Below are positions 2,857-19,914 of a DNA stretch of 24,106 nt, in pieces. Made by a program: the position numbers and the translations under genes. The stretch covers positions 1-24,106 of IMG/VR virus record IMGVR_UViG_3300032116_001291; one strand, given 5' to 3'. The notes beneath the pieces are model-generated. The model ran no database searches. It was not told where the DNA came from and saw only the letters and a program-made list of their open reading frames with translations. The DNA is from a virus. Each line of letters starts with the position of its first letter. Within the stretch, counting starts at the first letter, position 1.

Positions 2857-3108
2857 TTAGTCTTGACCGAAAGGTATGTTGGCAAGTTGTTGGGCAAAAT
2901 CTCGAAACGCATCTTCCATAGGTTTTACCGACATTCGTTTGAATTTATCGGCAAATTGGTCGAATAATAAAAACATTTGATTGTTGTCCAATTTGCTAAT
3001 ATCTGACCATAGCGAATTGACCACTGACATATTGAGACCCTCGTGGAGGGTTTCGGGGTTCTGAGTTTCACTCACAAAACTTTCAAAAGTGTTAAGATAT
3101 TTTTTCAT
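2857..3108 (-). CDS. 83-aa protein with capsid-targeting-like N-terminus
   Basis: The first 14 residues are MKKYLNTFESFVSE. This resembles the short amphipathic leader of T4 internal head proteins (for example MKTYQEF-type starts), which directs proteins into the prohead and is cut after an (I/L)-x-E motif by the gp21 protease. Here the cut would follow E14. The remaining ~69 residues look helical and are not recognised. The gene lies between gp6-like and gp7-like wedge genes, 28 bases after the gp6-like stop, so it may instead be a baseplate accessory. The leader reading is inferred from similarity to the 129-, 191- and 204-aa proteins encoded at 6189-7824. Confidence 0.65.
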   Translation of the reverse strand: MKKYLNTFESFVSETQNPETLHEGLNMSVVNSLWSDISKLDNNQMFLLFDQFADKFKRMSVKPMEDAFRDFAQQLANIPFGQD

Positions 3109-5309: not shown

Positions 5310-6041
5310 TCACCTATAAATCATAAACCAATCGGGAACATTCTCCTCATCAATCTTGGTTTTGAGCATTTCAATTTCTTCCTTTCCCTCATCTTTCAGC
5401 ATATCCCCATTAACAGCGATACCACCTGGGAGGTTAAAAGTAAAAAACCCCAAAATTCGACCCAGGGAAATTTTGGCTTCCGCCGTCACCCATCTTTGGA
5501 AATTCCAATCATCGTATAGTTTGGTTTCCTCTATTTTAACATAGGTTTGGAGGAATAGATTTTTTTTGGGGTCTCGACCTAATATCTTAAGTCGATGTGT
5601 ATTGGTATTGAAATCATAAGAAACTCGTTCTAATATAAAGGCTTTGGTTAAATCCCAATAAGAATACTGAGCAGTTCGTAAAACCAAATCATCGGAAGCA
5701 AAGGGGGCTAAATATATCTCCGCTGCTAATAGCCTATTATCGGAAAAATCTCGGTCGATAGTTCCTAAGCGTCCGCCACCCGAAATTTCTTTACATTCAA
5801 AGACACTGATAACACAATCGGGGAGTAAGATACTGCGAGTCCTTTTAAACTCGGGGTCGGAAAACCATTTCTTTTCAATCACGTAATATTGGGTCTCCAC
5901 CGAATATTGATAGTTAATGTAGAACCAATTCAAGGCTTGGTTGATTACCCTTTCAATTTCTTGGGGTGGGACAGAGTAGGGGAGTGCGCCACTACCCGTA
6001 ATTTCGTCATTAACTAATTGAATTAACTCACTTCGGGTCAT
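5310..6041 (-). CDS. virion structural protein candidate, 243 aa
   Basis: I do not recognise the family with certainty. The N-terminus (TRSELIQLVNDEITGSGALP followed by IERVINQALNWFYINYQYSV) has the helical look of small phage neck or connector proteins, and the remainder is a mix of strands and helices with a conserved-looking tryptophan/tyrosine-rich middle. There is no signal peptide or membrane segment. It is the first gene of the wedge operon, behind a clear promoter motif (6086-6093) and just after a terminator-like hairpin, and about 100 bases ahead of gp25. Position suggests a baseplate or neck component made in step with the wedge; a gp8-like or connector role are alternatives. Confidence 0.6.
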   Translation of the reverse strand: MTRSELIQLVNDEITGSGALPYSVPPQEIERVINQALNWFYINYQYSVETQYYVIEKKWFSDPEFKRTRSILLPDCVISVFECKEISGGGRLGTIDRDFSDNRLLAAEIYLAPFASDDLVLRTAQYSYWDLTKAFILERVSYDFNTNTHRLKILGRDPKKNLFLQTYVKIEETKLYDDWNFQRWVTAEAKISLGRILGFFTFNLPGGIAVNGDMLKDEGKEEIEMLKTKIDEENVPDWFMIYR

Positions 6042-6188: not shown

Positions 6189-6764
6189 CTAGTATGGGTC
6201 GTATTCAATTCCCCCAATCGTTATATGCTCATCACTAAATAGCACATAATCATTCGAATCTTTAGCTATATTACGTTTTAATCCATCTACACCATTTTTG
6301 AGTAAAAATAAAGATGCTTTTTTATCACCACCTAAAATCCTTGATAAAGTATTATAGAATAGCCACCCCACATAAGAGAATTCAACAACTTCGTCAGATT
6401 TTTTATTATGTCCGCCTAATGCTTCTACAACTTTATTAACTATGTCCTCTTGAACTGGATTCCTCGTATCTATCAAAATATATCCTTTTTTGTCTTTAAA
6501 AAGATTTACTTTATATAGATATTCGCCATATTCTTTATCTGGTATAAAGTTGCTAAAATAAATACCCCAACCACTTAACTGTCTATTCTTATTATTACTA
6601 ACTTTTGATATATCAAATTTATCAAATTTAATCGGACTTCTATGGTAAGCTGTTATTCCTTCTTTAATAGAATCGAATTTTGAATTAAGTAGTAAAGTTT
6701 GTTCATTCAAATATTCACGCATAGTAGTTGCTATGAATTTGTGTGGTTTTTTATCTTGTCCCAT
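6189..6764 (-). CDS. ADP-ribosyltransferase-like protein with packaging-tag N-terminus
   Basis: 191 residues. The catalytic-type start is ITAYHRSP (H41) followed by KFDKFD and then GWGIYFSN (Y69), and the end is YVLFSDEHITI. This matches the pattern of phage and mobile-element ADP-ribosyltransferase domains of the H-Y-E kind ('YHGSP...FDKFD...GWGLYF...Y-V-[IL]-F-D'). The last position could be D178 or E179. Residues 10-22 (FIATTMREYLNEQ) form an N-terminal segment nearly the same as that of the neighbouring 204-aa protein and similar to T4 capsid-targeting leaders, with a possible prohead-protease site after E21. By analogy with T4 Alt, it may be packaged and injected to modify a host protein. 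Activity and target are inference; the GS of the usual YHGSP is RS here. Confidence 0.62.
   Translation of the reverse strand: MGQDKKPHKFIATTMREYLNEQTLLLNSKFDSIKEGITAYHRSPIKFDKFDISKVSNNKNRQLSGWGIYFSNFIPDKEYGEYLYKVNLFKDKKGYILIDTRNPVQEDIVNKVVEALGGHNKKSDEVVEFSYVGWLFYNTLSRILGGDKKASLFLLKNGVDGLKRNIAKDSNDYVLFSDEHITIGGIEYDPY
6699..6734 (-). repeat. tag-coding repeat, copy in 191-aa gene
   Basis: This 36-base segment codes for IATT-M-REYLNEQ. It is identical at 30 of 36 positions, ungapped, to 7364-7399 in the next gene upstream; all six differences are transitions. Confidence 0.75.
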
Positions 6765-6805
6765 ATTATAAAAACGTTCTTTTTTATTTGTTGTCGCCCA
6801 AAAAA

Positions 6806-7420
6806 TTATATAACATCATATGTTATGTCTTTTAATTCATTAGTTTCGTCATTTAGTTCGTATATGAATCTAACATCATCCAATGTTACATTTCTAACGG
6901 AAAACCCTAAACCCACATCACCGAGTTGAGAATTAATTGTAAAATCACCAATTTCGTAGGCAAACCCTTGCGTTTCCAATCTTTCAACCATGTTTAGGTT
7001 TAAAAATTCTTTCTCAATGGCATTAATACCAATAACATACAAACCCCCTTTATAGCGACCACTTTTTTTCACTTTCAATCCCCACTCAATAACCTCACTT
7101 CTTGAGCCACCAAAGGAAGCACCGAAATATTTTTCTGGTGGGACACTATACTCACCGCCTATTATTTTTTTCGTTTTTAATATTATATTAAATTCCTTTT
7201 CATCAACAATCCTCCATAAAAAGGTGGTTGTTAAAAACGTACCAACACCAATATTTCTAAACAAGCTAAATTTATTTCTTAAATAAATCGCCTCTTTAAA
7301 ATTATCTTCAGTAATTTCGATGGGCGTTTCTTTGAAATCGTAAATACTATCTTTCGAAATCTTCTGCTCATTCAAATACTCATGTATGGTAGTTGCTATA
7401 TAATCGAAAGAGGGTTTCAT
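6806..7420 (-). CDS. second tagged protein, possible ADP-ribosyltransferase
   Basis: 204 residues. Residues 7-19 (YIATTIHEYLNEQ) repeat the N-terminal tag of the 191-aa protein, with a possible cleavage site after E18. After a 45-residue spacer comes FLWRIVDEKEF (R70), then KYFGASFGGSRSEVIEWG (98-114) and GGLYVIGINAI. An arginine-ended first strand, followed by a 'K-[WY]-F-[AG]-x-S...A-x-x-W-G' segment and then a strand, is a layout seen in R-S-E-type ADP-ribosyltransferases and related phage proteins. The final catalytic glutamate cannot be placed confidently, so the fold call is weaker than for its neighbour. The start lies behind an A8-CA leader, 14 bases after the stop of the 129-aa gene. 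It might instead be an unrelated internal head protein. Confidence 0.5.
   Translation of the reverse strand: MKPSFDYIATTIHEYLNEQKISKDSIYDFKETPIEITEDNFKEAIYLRNKFSLFRNIGVGTFLTTTFLWRIVDEKEFNIILKTKKIIGGEYSVPPEKYFGASFGGSRSEVIEWGLKVKKSGRYKGGLYVIGINAIEKEFLNLNMVERLETQGFAYEIGDFTINSQLGDVGLGFSVRNVTLDDVRFIYELNDETNELKDITYDVI
7364..7399 (-). repeat. tag-coding repeat, copy in 204-aa gene
   Basis: Partner of 6699-6734 (30 of 36 bases identical). It codes for IATT-I-HEYLNEQ. The similarity stops at the end of the tag; the downstream parts of the two genes do not align by eye. Confidence 0.75.
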
Positions 7421-7434
7421 CTAGTTTGTTTTTT

Positions 7435-7824
7435 TTACTGACCGCAGTAACGTTCCAACTCGGCTTGGATTTTTTGATTATTCATGCCCTTAAGGCTGAT
7501 GCCCGTGATAGTTTGGAATATCTCTTGACTAATCGATTGGTCGTAACGGATTTTTTTCACCAAAGCGGCACAATTTTTCTGCTCAATTTCTTGTACTGTT
7601 TTGGACATATTATTGATGAACATCTCTTTTTGTTTCTGTAGGTATTCCTCCCAAGTATCCGCTATGTGAGAAAATACACCCTCATCAAAACGCTTTTTAT
7701 CGTACTCTTGGTAACCAAAATAATCCTTTCGGTTGTACTTGTCAAATAAATCTCCAAGAAATCTATTCATGTTACCCGCTACGCCTTCATTAAGAAAAGA
7801 CTGATAATTTTTGATTGGTTGCAT
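7435..7824 (-). CDS. putative internal head protein with FLNE leader, 129 aa
   Basis: Starts MQPIKNYQSFLNEGVAG. The segment NYQSFLNE-G closely resembles the leaders of T4 internal proteins and gives a good prohead-protease consensus (L-x-E followed by a small residue), with the cut expected after E13. The rest is charged and helical, with no recognised domain and two cysteines (one near the C-terminus). It is the first of three consecutive genes with similar N-terminal tags. An A8-CA leader lies 12-20 bases ahead of the ATG, but no GATATATA motif precedes the gene, so it is probably transcribed from the promoter ahead of the S1-like gene. Confidence 0.6.
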   Translation of the reverse strand: MQPIKNYQSFLNEGVAGNMNRFLGDLFDKYNRKDYFGYQEYDKKRFDEGVFSHIADTWEEYLQKQKEMFINNMSKTVQEIEQKNCAALVKKIRYDQSISQEIFQTITGISLKGMNNQKIQAELERYCGQ

Positions 7825-7888: not shown

Positions 7889-9319
7889 CTATTTCTCCTT
7901 TTTATTTTCTTTCTTTTCGCCTTTTTTGTCTTTCTGAGTTTGGCGGTCACTATCCCCATCTTCCGTGTTCGCATCGGGGGTGTTTGTACTTTTACTAACC
8001 AAGACCGTTTCTTTGGATATCTTGGCTAATTTTCCAATTTCCCCATTTCGAATTACCCCACCTTTCATCTCGCAGTTAATAATCATATTTTTATTCTCTA
8101 CGTAACAATCATCTAAGGTATTGGAGGCGTGTAGGATACATTCTGTGACTTTAGAGCCCGTGATGCGATTGTTTTTTAAAAACTCACATCTAAAAAATCG
8201 AGAATTTTTAATTTTACAGTTATAAAACCAACAATGGTCTATCACCCCCTCTAATTCGCACTCCAAAAATTCGACATTTTCCACTTTGCAGTTGGTTATC
8301 TTAGCCGATTGGATTTGATGTCGAGCCATTTCGGTGTCGTAATTATACAGACCTTTCCGAAGCCCACCAGTATTAATTAATTTAAATAAGGTATCTCGGA
8401 TATTTCCCCAATAAGCTTCTAATAATTCACCATCATTTTTTAAATCTACGGATATTTTGATATCGGGAAAAATAGATTTAAAAACCTCGTATTTAACAAA
8501 GCCTCGATAATTACGGCTGTTCGCATCGGTCATTTTTTTAAAGTCGGAGATTTCGAGTTCGGTCAATCCCTCCGAATTTAAAGTTTCGTAGAGGTGTGCC
8601 ACGAAATACTCCAAGATTTCTAAAATCTTTTTGGTTTTGCGCTCATAACCTTCCCCACCAAGGTAGCGGTATTCTAAATACCCCTTGTGTAATTTAGTGA
8701 AATTAACCCCGTAATATTTTTCTTCGTTGGGAAAATTAAGTATGGAGTTGCCATAATTAACCAACGTGGGGTTGTAAAAGAGGATATCATTAAAACCAAT
8801 CTGTTTGATACTTCGAGCATAAACATTATCCTTACGGTCGGGGAATTTATCATAAACCTTGTTTTCATCAAAGGATAAGATAAATTTCGTCATGGGTAAC
8901 GATGTGATTTGGTGACGGGTGGGGAGTTTTTTATTATCAATATTGATATTTAAATGAATCGCACAACGGTTGTTAGTATACCCGTTGTTGGTTATCCACT
9001 CCAACATTTTAATAATCACGTTTCGGCTTTCTTTATAACTGAGCGTGCCCGTCACCAATTCTCGCATTTTCTTTCCCCCCGAGTAATCCAATTCCAATTT
9101 GAAAACGGAATCGGTAGGTTTGACTGAGGAGTGGTAGGTTAATTTTTCATCATCCAATCCTTTAATGACCATAGGAACAACTATTCGCTTCCCAAGAAAT
9201 TTTCCGATACTGCGGGCAATATCTACCCCGTTCTCAATTTCGGAGAAAAATTCAAATTCAACCCCCACTACGGTGGCATCTAAAATTTCTTCGGATGTAT
9301 AGTTTTTCTTAATGCGCAT
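7889..9319 (-). CDS. amidoligase-like domain fused to pentapeptide-type beta-helix
   Basis: 476 residues. Residues ~17-240 match the architecture of putative amidoligases (COOH-NH2 ligases with a glutamine-synthetase-like fold): GVEFEF (E21, E23), then LELDYSG with RELVTGTL (D78, E87), then CAIHLNI (H122) and finally GYLEYRYLGGEG (E216, R218) followed by a long helix. Those positions correspond to the metal and ATP-binding acidic residues, the histidine strand and the 'E-[FY]-R' strand of the family. Residues ~340-440 contain a pentapeptide-like repeat region (NCKVENVEFLECELEG, YNCKIKNSRFFRCEF) expected to form a right-handed beta-helix. The last ~35 residues are a charged Asp/Lys/Glu tail. 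Such enzymes join amino groups to carboxylates, often on peptides. Why a tail gene cluster should carry one is unclear, and the substrate is unknown. Confidence 0.55.
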   Translation of the reverse strand: MRIKKNYTSEEILDATVVGVEFEFFSEIENGVDIARSIGKFLGKRIVVPMVIKGLDDEKLTYHSSVKPTDSVFKLELDYSGGKKMRELVTGTLSYKESRNVIIKMLEWITNNGYTNNRCAIHLNINIDNKKLPTRHQITSLPMTKFILSFDENKVYDKFPDRKDNVYARSIKQIGFNDILFYNPTLVNYGNSILNFPNEEKYYGVNFTKLHKGYLEYRYLGGEGYERKTKKILEILEYFVAHLYETLNSEGLTELEISDFKKMTDANSRNYRGFVKYEVFKSIFPDIKISVDLKNDGELLEAYWGNIRDTLFKLINTGGLRKGLYNYDTEMARHQIQSAKITNCKVENVEFLECELEGVIDHCWFYNCKIKNSRFFRCEFLKNNRITGSKVTECILHASNTLDDCYVENKNMIINCEMKGGVIRNGEIGKLAKISKETVLVSKSTNTPDANTEDGDSDRQTQKDKKGEKKENKKEK

Positions 9320-9333
9320 TTCGGTTAGTTGTG

Positions 9334-10548
9334 TTATTTACTATCGGCAAATTTCAAATGGAGGCGGTTATTATTAGTGATGTAACCAATTTTAACCTCA
9401 ATATTTTCCCCCACATTCAGTTTCCCTTGTTTTTTAGTTTTCAGTTCTTTCCCTGGGATAATACCAATCATATTATCATTCAACCGAACCGTTACCCCAA
9501 AAGGTTTTACGTTAATAACCTCCCCATTAATCACCTCATCTAAACGAGATTTGTGGTAGTCCTCTAATTCTTTCCTCTGTTGGGCGGGGTCGATGCTAGT
9601 CAAAATGATTTTCTTGTCATAAGATATTTCTTGAATCCAAAAAGTGATGGTATCACCCGCTCGATAGCCACGGTTATGAAAACGTTCCGTGTCAGCTTCC
9701 GACATTTTTGAAGTGTGGAGTAAACCCGTGAAAATGTCATCAAACTCGACAAAGACTCCAAATTTAGTCGCCCCCGTGACCGTACCCGTATATTGAGCAC
9801 CCACCCCAAGCTCGTTGGTTTTTTGTGGGAGTACGGTTTTGACATATCTCTTGTATGAGAATACAAAGGTATCGCTCCCCTCTAAATAATCTTCCACCAT
9901 GAGCGGAATGGTTTTGCCAATCATTTCGTCAAAATTACGTACGATATTGGCGGCGGCTAGAGAGCCAGGTAAAAATCCAATCACCCCTTGCACGTTGACA
10001 AAGAATCCCCCTTGGTTTTTTTCCAAGATAGTTCCAAAATAAGCCGATGTTGGGTTGGTAATTTGTTCGTAAAACTCATCTTTAGTTTTGAGGATTTGAC
10101 CTTTAGTAATAGAACCTTTAAGATAGGGTTTGACTTGCTCGACTACTAAGTAGCACTTGTTTGCTAAAAATTCTTCTTTACCCTCGGGATTGCTAACAAA
10201 ATCTAAGAAATCAGTATAGTGCTTAAAGCCTATGCTTTCGATAAAGCTTCGCTCGCTTGCCATTTCGGTAATACATTCAAAGCCACCTTTCAAGACAAAA
10301 TTAACCTCACTACCTCGAACATGGACGATGTCGGTTATAAGGAAAGCTTCACCTACTAAGGGTTCTCCATTGGGCATATCTATTTTTAAGAGTTCCTCAT
10401 AGTAAGCAAGGGCATAATCGGCATGATTATACACATTATCTTTATAACGGGAGAGAATAGCCGCATTGGGTATTTTTTTTCTTCGAGCAGTTTCAGCATC
10501 TAAATAATCCCAATCGAAATCATTGGCTGAGGTGGAATTCAAATTCAT
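9334..10548 (-). CDS. multi-domain S1 RNA-binding protein (ribosomal S1-like)
   Basis: 404 residues with three S1 OB-fold repeats: ~169-236 (YFGTILEKNQGGFFVNVQGV, FLPGS), ~249-318 (YTGTVTGATKFGVFVEF, GLLHTSKMS) and ~338-402 (NGEVINVKPFGVTVRLND, GIIPGKEL). A degenerate fourth copy may lie at ~63-100. The N-terminal 60 residues are acidic and not recognised. S1 proteins bind single-stranded A/U-rich RNA; in the ribosome they help unstructured leaders into the initiation site. Bacterial S1 has more repeats (usually four to six), so this is a shortened, phage-specific version. It is the first gene after a promoter motif (10588) and has an A8-CA leader of its own. It could favour phage mRNA translation, act in RNA protection, or be a virion component; the sequence does not decide. 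Confidence 0.75.
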   Translation of the reverse strand: MNLNSTSANDFDWDYLDAETARRKKIPNAAILSRYKDNVYNHADYALAYYEELLKIDMPNGEPLVGEAFLITDIVHVRGSEVNFVLKGGFECITEMASERSFIESIGFKHYTDFLDFVSNPEGKEEFLANKCYLVVEQVKPYLKGSITKGQILKTKDEFYEQITNPTSAYFGTILEKNQGGFFVNVQGVIGFLPGSLAAANIVRNFDEMIGKTIPLMVEDYLEGSDTFVFSYKRYVKTVLPQKTNELGVGAQYTGTVTGATKFGVFVEFDDIFTGLLHTSKMSEADTERFHNRGYRAGDTITFWIQEISYDKKIILTSIDPAQQRKELEDYHKSRLDEVINGEVINVKPFGVTVRLNDNMIGIIPGKELKTKKQGKLNVGENIEVKIGYITNNNRLHLKFADSK

Positions 10549-11852: not shown

Positions 11853-13985
11853 TTATTCTAAAATTGTTTTTCCTAAATTATCGGCTATGATGTTGGTCTC
11901 TGTCCCCGAAAAATTAACATTCTTTTCAATATTGGTATTGATTGTTGGGGCTAACAAATCAACTTGTTCGTTATCTGCTGTTGTGGTAGTCGGAGCTATT
12001 AGGCTCACCTTATCTAACCCTACATTTCCTTTAGGGGGTTCATTAAACTCAACGGTGGATAGTTTAGATTGGGTACTTTCGGGGGCTTCCAAATTGACTT
12101 TCGCTGTTTCTAAAACAGCCTTTGGTGGACTAACCAAGTCGATGCTGCTTTCTATTGGTGTGCCTTCAAAATTACTCTCTAACTCAACCTTTGAATCGGG
12201 TGAGGGTTTTATAGGAAAGCTTAATAGCTTGACCTTAGTATCCGAAGTGGTATTCACGGGTGGCTCTTCGAGGGTCACCGAGGTTTCGATATCGTTACTG
12301 ATACTTGGGGCTATTAATTCTACTTTACCACTTGCGGTACTTGAGGATTCTGCGGAGGTTAATTCCACCTTTTCGGGTACTGTATCTGAGGAAACGGGAC
12401 TAGTTAACTCCACTTTAGGTGCTTGGAGTGAGTTTTCGGTGGGTGTGCCACTTAACTGAATATTTGAGGGTAGACCAACATTTTTAGTGGGGGCTACAAA
12501 TAAAACCCTATCTAAATTCCCTTGTAAGGACGACCCATTATTTTCCAACACTAAACGAACCGAGTCGAGACTGTTGTTTTTATTTGGGGCGTTTAATACG
12601 ACAGCATCCCCACTCATAGGGGGTGTTTGGGTGCTATTTAGGCTAATGTTTCCTAAATTAGTTCTTTGCAGGTTTTCGGAGGCAATGGTATTAATGATGG
12701 TTTCGATAGATTGGTTTTCTAAATCTGTCCCCACCACGGCATTAGCTAACACCTCTACCGACCCTATGGTGTCCTTTACTAATTCTATTTCCGCCCCCGT
12801 TAATTGGATATTGGAGGCGAGGGAATCGGCTATTGGGCTCGCCACCCCCGCATTGGATAACAGACTGCGAGCGGCGGCTCCAGGGTTATTGATAGCACTT
12901 TGTAGGGCATTGATAGCGTTACTAGCGGAGAAGCCATAGACATTCCCCAAAAGAAGTTTATTGGCGGCATTTCGAGCCACATTTTCTGCGGCATTGATTA
13001 AATACTGCGCCCCACCAAGAGCCGAAAAATAATCACTGAAACTCCTCAATACCTTATCCCCACCATCACTTGCAAATGAACTATCCCTAAAGGATTTGCC
13101 TCGCTCGAAAGCATATTTGGTATCTTGTAAGTAAGCCCCCAATAGACCATATTTATTGATTTCTCGAACTGCACCAACTTTTACTTTAAATTTGACTGAG
13201 GCGGGTGTACCGTCGGCAAAACGATTTAAATTAGCCAAATATCCCACATCATCGGAAAATGGGTCTATTTCACAATACTCACATCTAAAGGTGTGGAATG
13301 TCCCCAAGTTGTAAGGACCGAGCAAACCAGGTCGTTGCATAGTTCTTATTTCCGCTATGACAATATCCATCATAAAGTATCTCTGACAATCGGGAGCTGC
13401 CCATCGGTGATAGGTGGCATCCCAAATAGATTTACGATACAAATCTAATATATAGGTCATCTTTAAATCAATGGTTTCTAAACATTCAAAAGTCAGAACC
13501 ACATCCTTGGTGCGAAAATTATTACTAGGGTTGATTTTCCACAAGCTATCCACCCCCGATATTTTTTGAATCATCCAAGGGGTTTTTTTGAATATTTTAA
13601 TAAACCCCGCTTGGAATTCTTCCATCATTTTAGCCCTATAATGTTCATTTCTTCTCCTAAAATAACCAATCACCGAATCTGATTGTTGCTGTTGGGCTTG
13701 TTCACTTGTACTCAGATTATCGGGTATTAAAAGACCTTGGGGTAAATAATCCCTATTGTAGTTATCATTAGCCCCCAAAATAGCCAAATCGGGTTGTAGG
13801 TACACCCAAAACCCTAAGTAAGTGGGGTCTTCATTTTCTATCCACTTATCAACCCCCGAGGATACACCTACCCCAAGACCATTCTCTGATAAGCTAATGT
13901 CTATGTTGAGGTTTTTAAACGGACTAGGGTTGAATTGTCCATTTCCGTTTAAGAAATTTTTCGTTATGGAGTCAGTTTTATTCAT
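11853..13985 (-). CDS. tube-initiator-like baseplate protein with 15-residue repeat tail
   Basis: 710 residues. Residues ~120-270 include KTPWMIQKISGVDSLWK, LTFECLETIDLKMTYILDLYRKSIWD, CQRYFMMDIVIAEIRTMQRP and CEYCEIDPFSDDVG, a pattern seen in tail-tube or tube-initiator proteins (T4 gp48/gp54 type) of large phages. From ~462 to ~692 there are about 16 copies of a repeat with consensus [KS]-[VI]-x-L-x-x-P followed by eight variable, Ser/Thr/Asn/Pro-rich residues. Twelve consecutive copies are exactly 15 residues long. The region 330-460 is Ala/Asn-rich and helical. It sits between hub and spike genes in a compact operon. The tube-initiator call is motif-based; the repeat tail has no assigned function and could be a spacer, a rod or a partner-binding arm. 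Confidence 0.6.
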   Translation of the reverse strand: MNKTDSITKNFLNGNGQFNPSPFKNLNIDISLSENGLGVGVSSGVDKWIENEDPTYLGFWVYLQPDLAILGANDNYNRDYLPQGLLIPDNLSTSEQAQQQQSDSVIGYFRRRNEHYRAKMMEEFQAGFIKIFKKTPWMIQKISGVDSLWKINPSNNFRTKDVVLTFECLETIDLKMTYILDLYRKSIWDATYHRWAAPDCQRYFMMDIVIAEIRTMQRPGLLGPYNLGTFHTFRCEYCEIDPFSDDVGYLANLNRFADGTPASVKFKVKVGAVREINKYGLLGAYLQDTKYAFERGKSFRDSSFASDGGDKVLRSFSDYFSALGGAQYLINAAENVARNAANKLLLGNVYGFSASNAINALQSAINNPGAAARSLLSNAGVASPIADSLASNIQLTGAEIELVKDTIGSVEVLANAVVGTDLENQSIETIINTIASENLQRTNLGNISLNSTQTPPMSGDAVVLNAPNKNNSLDSVRLVLENNGSSLQGNLDRVLFVAPTKNVGLPSNIQLSGTPTENSLQAPKVELTSPVSSDTVPEKVELTSAESSSTASGKVELIAPSISNDIETSVTLEEPPVNTTSDTKVKLLSFPIKPSPDSKVELESNFEGTPIESSIDLVSPPKAVLETAKVNLEAPESTQSKLSTVEFNEPPKGNVGLDKVSLIAPTTTTADNEQVDLLAPTINTNIEKNVNFSGTETNIIADNLGKTILE
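11910..12602 (-). repeat. 45-bp-period coding repeat array (15 aa x about 16)
   Basis: Codes the C-terminal part of the 710-aa protein. Anchors are V-x-L triplets at residues ~462, 476, 494, 509 and then every 15 residues from 525 to 690. Earlier units vary between 14 and 18 residues. DNA copies have diverged, so the repeat is seen better in protein than in DNA. Confidence 0.8.
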
Positions 13986-18507: not shown

Positions 18508-18534
18508 TTTTCTAAAAATAACTTTTCTAAAAAT
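18508..18534 (+). repeat. 12-nt direct repeat in leader of 102-aa gene
   Basis: TTTTCTAAAAAT occurs at 18508-18519 and 18523-18534; the second copy runs into the ATG at 18533. It forms an A-rich leader with no Shine-Dalgarno sequence. Confidence 0.6.
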
Positions 18535-18841
18535 GTCAAAGATTTTAAAATTTTCGGATTTCGAGAGTCGAAATCTCCAAGAAGAAGAGGAGGGTAAATC
18601 TTATTTACAGAAACTCCAAAATATTTCCCAACAAACCGAGAAACTAATGGAGTTGATTTCGGATAACGAGGAGTTAGAGGCTTGGGTGCAAGACAAAATT
18701 ACGATTGCGGAACATAACATAGAGGCAATACTTGGTTATTACCAATCGAGCAAAAAAGGGGGTACTGATATGCCCTTAGAACCTAACCCAAACAACCCCG
18801 AACTTAAGAAACCTACTAAACCTTTGTTTGACCGCAAATGA
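18533..18841 (+). CDS. small helical protein with FSDF N-terminal motif
   Basis: 102 residues. Starts MSKILKFSDFESRNLQ, then an acidic stretch, then a helical region LQNISQQTEKLMELISDN and ELEAWVQDKITIAEHNIEAI with LGYYQSS. The last part, 'E-x-x-W-V-x-x-K-I-x-x-A-x-x-x-I-x-x-[IV]-x-x-Y', resembles a short helix-loop module common in small proteins of T4-like phages; its role is not known to me. The C-terminal 25 residues are Pro/Asn/Lys-rich. The first gene of a two-gene plus-strand unit, it overlaps the CapA-like gene by ATGA. The FSDF motif recurs at the start of that next protein, so a packaging or localisation tag is possible. Confidence 0.65.
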   Translation: MSKILKFSDFESRNLQEEEEGKSYLQKLQNISQQTEKLMELISDNEELEAWVQDKITIAEHNIEAILGYYQSSKKGGTDMPLEPNPNNPELKKPTKPLFDRK

Positions 18842-19914
18842 AAACACCCACCTTTTCCGATTTCAACAATCGGAGTATCAAAATAGCTATTTTGGGGGAA
18901 TTGATGTGTGAGCGAGGGGCGGTTAATTCAGTTATTAATGGCGACCCGTTCAAATATATTTCCCCCTTTTTACAATCACATGATTATGTGGTGGGGCAGT
19001 TGGAAACCACCTTATCGGGATTAACCTCTAATTATCCGAGGTTTTCGAGCGGGGATTATTTTGCCGAGTATTTAAGCCACCAAGTAGATTTTTTATTCAC
19101 CGCAAATAACCATTCTTTTGATTGGGGGGTGGATGGGGTCTATCACACCATAGACACCTTAAAACAATATGGGATTTCGCAAATAGGGGTGCATAAAAAA
19201 AATAAAAAACCCCACTACAAGGGGGTGAATGTTCGAGATTTTAGCTTATCTTTTTTAAATTACACACAATTTATCAACCATGGGACGAAAAAAAACCCTC
19301 AACACCAAGATGATGTTTTCCAAGAGTCTGCTGATTCCGCCGACGCAAGGGGAGTCATCTCCTTTTACGAAGAATCCAGCGTTAAAAAAGAAATTAATCT
19401 TGCGAAAAAGGGATGCGATGTCATCCTTGCTGCAATCCATCTCGCAAATCAAAGGCGCAATGGGAGTGTCCGAGAACTCTCCCGAAAATCAACCTCCGAA
19501 CAAAGAGGAATCTTAGAAAAGATGTGCGCTTCGGGGGCGGATATTGTTTTGGGTGGACACCCACACTATTTTCAAGGGGGTCGCCAACAAGGCAAACAAC
19601 TAATGGTTTGGTCTTTGGGGAGTTTTTTCACTTTGATGGAGCACCCCGATTACGAAAACAATTCGGGTTGTGTGCTTAGTGTGCGATATGATTCTTATCT
19701 AAACCCAACGTACACCTTTTTGCCCGTAGCAACGGTGTATAATACCCAAGACCATTTTTATTATGTCCTCCCTATCGCCCCGTTGGCTCAAGGTTTCTAC
19801 TCCTTTGTTTCCGAGCAGAAAAGATATGCATTACTTCAAGAGCTTTCTCAAATAAGAGAAACTTTAAGGGAGAACAGTTTAGTTGAGGAAATAATCCCGA
19901 TTAGCCTCATCTGA
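18838..19914 (+). CDS. CapA-like metallophosphatase (PGA_cap family)
   Basis: 358 residues. Motifs in order: GELMCERG (20-27), QLETTLSG (54-61), FTANNHSFDWGVDG (87-100), VILAAIHLANQRR (195-207), GADIVLGGHPHYFQGG (233-248) and VWSLGSFF (257-264). These match the metal-binding motifs of the CapA/PgsA family, related to calcineurin-like phosphoesterases and linked to poly-gamma-glutamate capsule formation in bacteria. Odd points: the first motif has E instead of the usual D after G, the usual H-W-G is H-L-A, and there is no signal peptide or membrane anchor. Instead, it starts MKTPTFSDFNNRS, sharing FSDF with the preceding protein. It could hydrolyse phospho- or peptide substrates at the host surface or in the cytoplasm; the substrate is unknown. 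Confidence 0.8.
   Translation: MKTPTFSDFNNRSIKIAILGELMCERGAVNSVINGDPFKYISPFLQSHDYVVGQLETTLSGLTSNYPRFSSGDYFAEYLSHQVDFLFTANNHSFDWGVDGVYHTIDTLKQYGISQIGVHKKNKKPHYKGVNVRDFSLSFLNYTQFINHGTKKNPQHQDDVFQESADSADARGVISFYEESSVKKEINLAKKGCDVILAAIHLANQRRNGSVRELSRKSTSEQRGILEKMCASGADIVLGGHPHYFQGGRQQGKQLMVWSLGSFFTLMEHPDYENNSGCVLSVRYDSYLNPTYTFLPVATVYNTQDHFYYVLPIAPLAQGFYSFVSEQKRYALLQELSQIRETLRENSLVEEIIPISLI

Follow-up and report, generated by a model that had tools for sequence, protein, structure and literature searches.

The internal proteins of bacteriophage T4 and its Alt protein carry short N-terminal capsid-targeting leaders that are cut after an (I/L)-x-E motif by the prohead protease. In jumbo phages most genes are without known function, and the proteins injected by uncultured members are unknown. 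Two of the T4 internal proteins, IPII and IPIII, translated here from NC_000866, both begin MKTYQEFIAE. This peptide is an experimentally proven capsid-targeting sequence (CTS), in which mutants assign residues 4 and 7 mainly to targeting and residues 8 and 10 to processing (PMC9026906), and the terminal L/I-x-E is the cleavage motif of the T4 protease, gp21 (PMC9026906, PMC5694885). Alt is a head-packaged ADP-ribosyltransferase (ART) that is ejected and modifies the host RNA polymerase (PMC9026906, PMC9503650). Head-packaged ARTs are an established theme, and the ART-PolyVal polyvalent proteins (Iyer et al.) are predicted injected effectors (PMC9503650). In phages phiKZ and SPN3US, many internal head proteins, the inner-body or ejection proteins, are processed by the prohead protease (PMC5694885).

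The window analysed here is a virus fragment of 24,106 nucleotides without head genes; a near-identical contig of 35 kb and relatives of 28-92 kb were recovered through its sheath gene. The sheath and baseplate-wedge genes place the window among large myophages, including LR756500 (462 kb), the Lak phages, MaF61 and PTm1, and the hosts of most of the related isolates (Flavobacterium phage MaF61, Tenacibaculum phage PTm1 and others) presumably point to Bacteroidota. A nucleotide megablast of phages gave no match. The closest large syntenic relative, G053, is a 238-kb contig whose sheath is 48% identical and whose tail operon has the gene order of the window. The features under discussion are as follows:

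2857..3108, minus strand: fourth tagged gene, 83 aa, tag MKKYLNTFESFVSE with predicted cut before T, flanked by the baseplate-wedge gene and an 88-aa gene
5310..6041, minus strand: head-tail adaptor-like protein, conserved on one side of the insertion site (phrog_211 head-tail adaptor Ad2, E 6e-12)
6189..6764, minus strand: tagged gene 3, 191 aa, predicted divergent ADP-ribosyltransferase (ART-PolyVal type), tag KFIATTMREYLNE with predicted cut before Q
6498..6653, minus strand: segment of gene 3 aligned to ADP-ribosyltransferases (YHRSP...GWGIYFS...YGEYLYKVNL; phmmer alignment and tagged-ART alignment)
6702..6764, minus strand: putative CTS formed by residues 1-21 of the gene 3 product, with the predicted cut after E21 (tag family of gene 2)
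6806..7420, minus strand: tagged gene 2, open reading frame of 204 aa with no identified function, tag DYIATTIHEYLNE with predicted cut before Q
7367..7420, minus strand: putative CTS formed by residues 1-18 of the gene 2 product, with the predicted cut after E18 (IATT[IM]xEYLNE tag)
7435..7824, minus strand: tagged gene 1, open reading frame of 129 aa with no identified function, tag MQPIKNYQSFLNE with predicted cut before G
7786..7824, minus strand: putative CTS formed by residues 1-13 of the gene 1 product, with the predicted cut after E13 (Y7-x-x-F10-L11-x-E13)
7889..9319, minus strand: 476-aa amidoligase/pentapeptide protein of the tail operon, opposite conserved flank of the insertion site (Pfam Amidoligase_2, 4.5e-5)
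18533..18841, plus strand: 102-aa protein with a degenerate tag-like N-terminus (MSKILKFSDFESRNLQEEEEG)

A sequence-only reading had quoted the N-termini of the three consecutive genes and taken them for T4-type leaders of proteins loaded into the head. The three open reading frames are present on the minus strand with these N-termini (MQPIKNYQSFLNE-G, MKPSFDYIATTIHEYLNE-Q and MGQDKKPHKFIATTMREYLNE-Q), and the motif Y/I/M-x-x-F/Y-L-N-E ends at the candidate cleavage residue E13 in the 129-aa protein, E18 in the 204-aa protein and E21 in the 191-aa protein. All three tags have the form anchor-x-x-aromatic-[LI]-x-E with the T4 spacing, the first anchor being Y in the 129-aa protein and I or M in the other two; in gene 1 the spacing equals that of Y4-x-x-F7-I8-x-E10 in IPIII. 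Three features expected of a CTS are present: a position at the extreme N-terminus, anchors at 4 and 7, an aliphatic residue at 8 and Glu at 10, and one peptide on unrelated proteins. Among 22 genes of the window (6743 aa), [FYIML]xx[FY]LNE has three matches, all close to the N-terminus and confined to these three proteins; by amino-acid composition, a given gene would have it within its first 25 residues with a probability of ~1.5e-4 (0.015%). The three tags are real and not the product of chance. The proteins differ outside the tag, as the earlier reading had it: BLASTP of the 204- and 191-aa proteins aligns essentially the common IATT[IM]xEYLNEQ alone, with no convincing similarity beyond it. 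The search for further tagged proteins that this reading had proposed yielded the fourth gene, which it had missed and which is not at the corresponding place in the relative G002, and the degenerate N-terminus at 18533-18841, where the equivalent gene of G055 starts MKNIKTFEDFLGD.

The explanation that we consider very probable, in the absence of virion data, is that the three genes encode capsid-targeted, protease-trimmed internal cargo of the virion, their tags being CTSs of the T4 IPII/IPIII type. The tag, comprising the first 13-21 residues, would dock each protein onto the prohead core during assembly, a gp21-type (Peptidase_S77) prohead protease would cut after the tag glutamate, and the trimmed cargo would stay free in the mature head until ejected with the DNA; the 191-aa cargo may have a role analogous to that of Alt. 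Docking, cleavage, packaging and ejection are inferred, as are any host target and action. The system may work like the capsid-targeting system of T4, but its membership is not proven, cleavage and packaging being inferences only.

The site of the cassette varies between relatives. The amidoligase gene occupies an equivalent position in G002, G003, G004, G053 and G055. In G002 and G053 it is adjacent to the adaptor gene, leaving the insertion site empty, in G003, G004 and G055 the gap holds another tagged gene (starting MKYIKKFEDYVAS, MRYIKKFEDYVAS and MKHIKTFENFLNE, respectively), and in the window it holds three. The cassette is an accessory insertion, its polymorphism established computationally, in a tail-operon slot that is empty or filled with other tagged genes in relatives. 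The amidoligase protein (7889-9319, minus strand) fuses the Amidoligase_2 domain to a pentapeptide-repeat-like region and is retained in the tail operon throughout the clade. A 404-aa protein with S1 RNA-binding domains (9334-10548, minus strand; best match 30S ribosomal protein S1, E 6e-28) lies inside the tail/baseplate operon, and genes of similar length at this position in G002-G004, G053 and G055 look like homologues. The 710-aa protein at 11853-13985 (minus strand) has degenerate KVELxxP-like repeats over its C-terminal stretch, and a PGA_cap metallophosphatase-like protein (18838-19914, plus strand; E 6.5e-40), conserved in relatives, is encoded in divergent orientation beside the sheath gene.

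The proposal that the genes form a host-takeover cassette was the weaker part of the earlier reading: an effector-type fold, that of an ADP-ribosyltransferase, is recognisable in the 191-aa protein alone and not in the 129- and 204-aa proteins. Scored directly against Pfam ART-PolyVal, the 191-aa protein reaches E 0.08-0.1 and 13.8-14.1 bits against a gathering cut-off of 31.2. With phmmer it matches the L160 ORF, a tagged ART of G008, at E 5.3e-5 (15,815 sequences), this ORF itself scoring ART-PolyVal at E 2.8e-20 (74 bits), and the two align over the pattern YH...GxYFS...YG..LYxV. As the direct score is under the Pfam cut-off, the protein is called ART-like by homology and not a Pfam member; from this computed similarity it is predicted to be a divergent ADP-ribosyltransferase, its transferase activity being inferred. 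For the 129-aa protein there was no Pfam, PHROG or NCBIfam family above cut-off and no relative beyond the near-identical contig. The 204-aa protein has no relatives in phages, viral contigs (the near-identical contig excepted) or GTDB contigs and no Pfam match up to E 10. By eye it is ART-like, a candidate identity rejected for want of any sequence or profile match, and without a supporting profile it is left unassigned. AlphaFold predictions from single sequences gave no usable fold for the 191-aa (pLDDT 35) or the 204-aa protein (pLDDT 31). Across the wider set, Pfam matches on 98 tagged representatives include ART-PolyVal, GNAT, RimK/ATP-grasp, adenylate kinase, cREC (a cyclic-phosphate-processing receiver domain), cytidylyltransferase, 2OG-Fe(II) oxygenase and an Acb1 anti-CBASS match. 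A tagged Acb1-like protein (L241:5490-5990, plus strand; Pfam Acb1 E 1.7e-7) could, if packaged, counter CBASS from the moment of injection, before phage transcription. G008, which has tagged ARTs and the protease, also encodes a polyvalent protein of 576 aa that combines GNAT and ART domains (L158:7362-9089, minus strand).

The absence of a prohead protease from the genome was held by the sequence-only reading to be capable of refuting it, and the search gave a divided result. None of the window genes, read one by one, looks like Peptidase_S77, the family of gp21, the 24-kb contig being too short to contain the protease, and none was found in the near-identical contig or in four other relatives (28-92 kb), all of them fragments. 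The family is present, however, in G053, where its gene adjoins a major-capsid-like gene, in LR756500, PTm1 and Lak-A1, in nine of 15 large contigs with IATT tags, and in 18 of the 22 contigs of 100 kb or more that were recovered by the MKHIKLFEQFINE-type tag alone; most contigs of the latter type also encode homologues of the window's baseplate-wedge (36-46% identity) and sheath proteins. Because the window, the near-identical contig and the four relatives lack the protease, the computed link between window and protease runs through the clade. Tag and protease are not perfectly coupled, and tag usage varies within the wider group, since PTm1 (W03) has the S77 protease and no tags of this shape, while MaF61 (W01) has the sheath in common and neither a Pfam S77 match nor tags. 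G054, G057 and G058, three large contigs carrying distant relatives of the sheath, likewise gave no protease match. The S77 family is probably widespread among large T4-like phages. Without a matched untagged control set, the co-occurrence of tag and protease is only consistent with the model and is no statistical proof. In several contigs (L307:15458-17458, W02:226725-228623 and others) an open reading frame of 600-750 aa has the S77 protease as its N-terminal part, apparently in a protease-scaffold fusion; genes 21 and 22 of T4 are separate.

Gene order provides a further connection to the head. Nine contigs encode a tagged protein of ~115 aa with an acidic tail between the portal gene and the protease (phrog_213, E 3e-71, and phrog_207, E 1.9e-42, respectively, in G036), and in G036 and G030 the major head protein then follows the protease (phrog_138, tested in G036). 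Exactly this portal-protease position is held in T4 by the core genes 67 and 68, and gp67 is likewise short and acidic, so that the computed location is a link between tag and prohead core that does not depend on the likeness of the tag to the T4 internal proteins. In G008, a protein that starts MKKFIKSQLISLNE and has an ADP-ribosyltransferase domain is encoded ~4 kb downstream of the protease gene. The interpretation of the N-termini as T4-type leaders is supported both by their match to the T4 CTS in spacing and residue class and by the tagged protein between portal and protease.

This tagged acidic protein also favours the rival explanation that survives best, namely that the tagged proteins are packaged and trimmed, yet serve the head itself, in core assembly or DNA condensation, and not host takeover. 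Such a role overlaps with internal cargo as proposed above and differs in the last step only, and no enzyme domain can be recognised in two of the three cargos of the window. It is opposed by the ART-like cargo of the window, by the ART, GNAT, cyclic-phosphate-processing receiver, adenylate kinase and Acb1-like members of the wider tagged set, and by the accessory nature of the genes, which are missing in close relatives. We regard a purely head-serving role as unlikely but not to be set aside.

The tag is used throughout the clade. At least 38 viral contig stretches carry the IATT[IM]xEYLNE tag at N-termini, at residue 7-16 in nearly all open reading frames examined (one was ended by the locus edge), and 87 of 100 in-frame matches to IKx[FY]ExFxNE, among the matches listed, begin exactly at protein residue 4. 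DNA searches found two tag versions in many contigs. Eight genes of G002 start MKHIKTFESFLNE or similar, and N-terminal segments gave 29 high-scoring pairs in G002 and 17 in G003, against none from interior segments in either. Once stripped of the tag, 130 proteins separate into 100 groups without mutual similarity, a computational demonstration of modularity. Relatives with the window's tail genes have 6-26 tagged genes per contig where 0.7-3.3 are expected from the rate in the interior of proteins (G053, 24 against 2.5; G022, 26 against 3.3; G030, 14 against 1.5; G036, 6 against 0.8; G055, 9 against 0.7). Counts were always set against this expectation because a strict [FY]-x-x-[FY] expression is too narrow, missing the IATT tags, and a very loose one is prone to chance matches, as in Lak-A1, PTm1 and MaF61. 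The ORF-based count for Lak-A1 is not interpretable owing to in-frame TAG codons in its genes. Bare tag peptides gave no match in tblastn, as expected for queries so short. Among 297 tags collected with a pattern that itself required the anchors, the aliphatic position and E, the free positions are occupied mostly by N at P2 (213 tags) and often by A, S, N or Q at P1'; several tags are without the exact final glutamate. G009 (L140-L145), which has an S77 protease, contains a second shared N-terminus family, MKxxxLKxLIKExIKEVLKE-N (e.g. 8804-10204 and 28416-29181), possibly another capsid-targeting dialect.

As the cassette of the window lies among tail and baseplate genes, in a clade without virion data, the shared N-terminus could instead target another phage structure (tail/baseplate assembly or a replication compartment) or be a docking helix unrelated to the head. 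We consider this improbable: most tagged genes in relatives are situated away from the tail genes, the tag also occurs on the gene between portal and prohead protease, its conserved terminal L/I-x-E is the gp21 cleavage motif (PMC9026906, PMC5694885), and the corresponding T4 peptide is a proven CTS.

A feature of the DNA, such as a common translation-initiation or leader sequence or a recombination joint translated by accident, could account for the agreement of the 204- and 191-aa gene tags at 31 of 39 bases. Across contigs, however, the DNA of one tag exists in 25 versions, any two of which differ on average at 4.17 codons synonymously and at 0.32 non-synonymously, and that of the other in 68 distinct versions among 76. 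With codons that vary beneath a constant peptide, the target of selection is the peptide; computed in this way, the tag peptide is under purifying selection, and the DNA-leader explanation is largely refuted and very improbable. Coincidence between three unrelated accessory genes, for which no supporting point was found, is refuted to the point of having practically no chance, given the low probability per gene by composition, met in all three adjacent genes, and the genome-wide presence of the tag in the clade.

For the preferred explanation of tagged, head-loaded cargo, what is novel is the scale and modularity of the tag in jumbo phages: related giant phages carry it on hundreds of genes that have nothing else in common, so that the set of proteins that such a phage probably injects could be read from its genome. 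We lean towards the broader view that the tag is a freely transferable address code, that each jumbo phage of the clade pre-loads dozens of enzymes, among them ADP-ribosyltransferases, acetyltransferases, adenylate kinase and an Acb1-like anti-CBASS nuclease, that new effectors evolve by addition of a tag to any gene and that sequence alone suffices to read the injected proteome. Should the tag be a CTS, a short N-terminal pattern would predict the injected set in metagenomic genomes, point to new host-takeover and anti-defence proteins and provide tags ready for use in packing foreign enzymes into the heads of large phages. A search of the open-access literature (titles and starts of abstracts, without subscription papers or preprints) found no report of the tag in jumbo phages. 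The core genome described for large Bacteroidota phages lists a prohead protease, with no mention of such a tag in the passages found (PMC12619734).

Of the known systems, the T4 CTS is the nearest in form, being a short N-terminal aromatic-x-x-aromatic-[IL]-x-E, identical on different proteins, in a genome with a gp21-type protease (PMC9026906). It differs in scale, as T4 has a handful of such proteins, whereas here a contig has up to ~25 and the cargo forms no fewer than 100 unrelated groups, and in detail, as P2 is mostly Asn here (LNE/INE), an extra IATT[IM]REYLNE version exists, and packaging and cleavage are only inferred. With T4 Alt, the 191-aa protein would share the nature of a head-targeted, trimmed ADP-ribosyltransferase alongside other internal proteins, its targeting and trimming being inferred; it differs in resembling the ART-PolyVal family, no comparison with Alt having been made. 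The ART-PolyVal polyvalent proteins have this transferase family in common with it, but there the domain is part of a giant multidomain polypeptide, whereas the window protein is short, stand-alone and tagged. Finally, phiKZ and SPN3US likewise have many internal head proteins, processed by a prohead protease as is inferred here, but their propeptides often exceed 100 residues and are cut at A/S-x-E, whereas those described here have 10-21 residues and end in L/I-x-E, T4-like despite the jumbo size of the phages.
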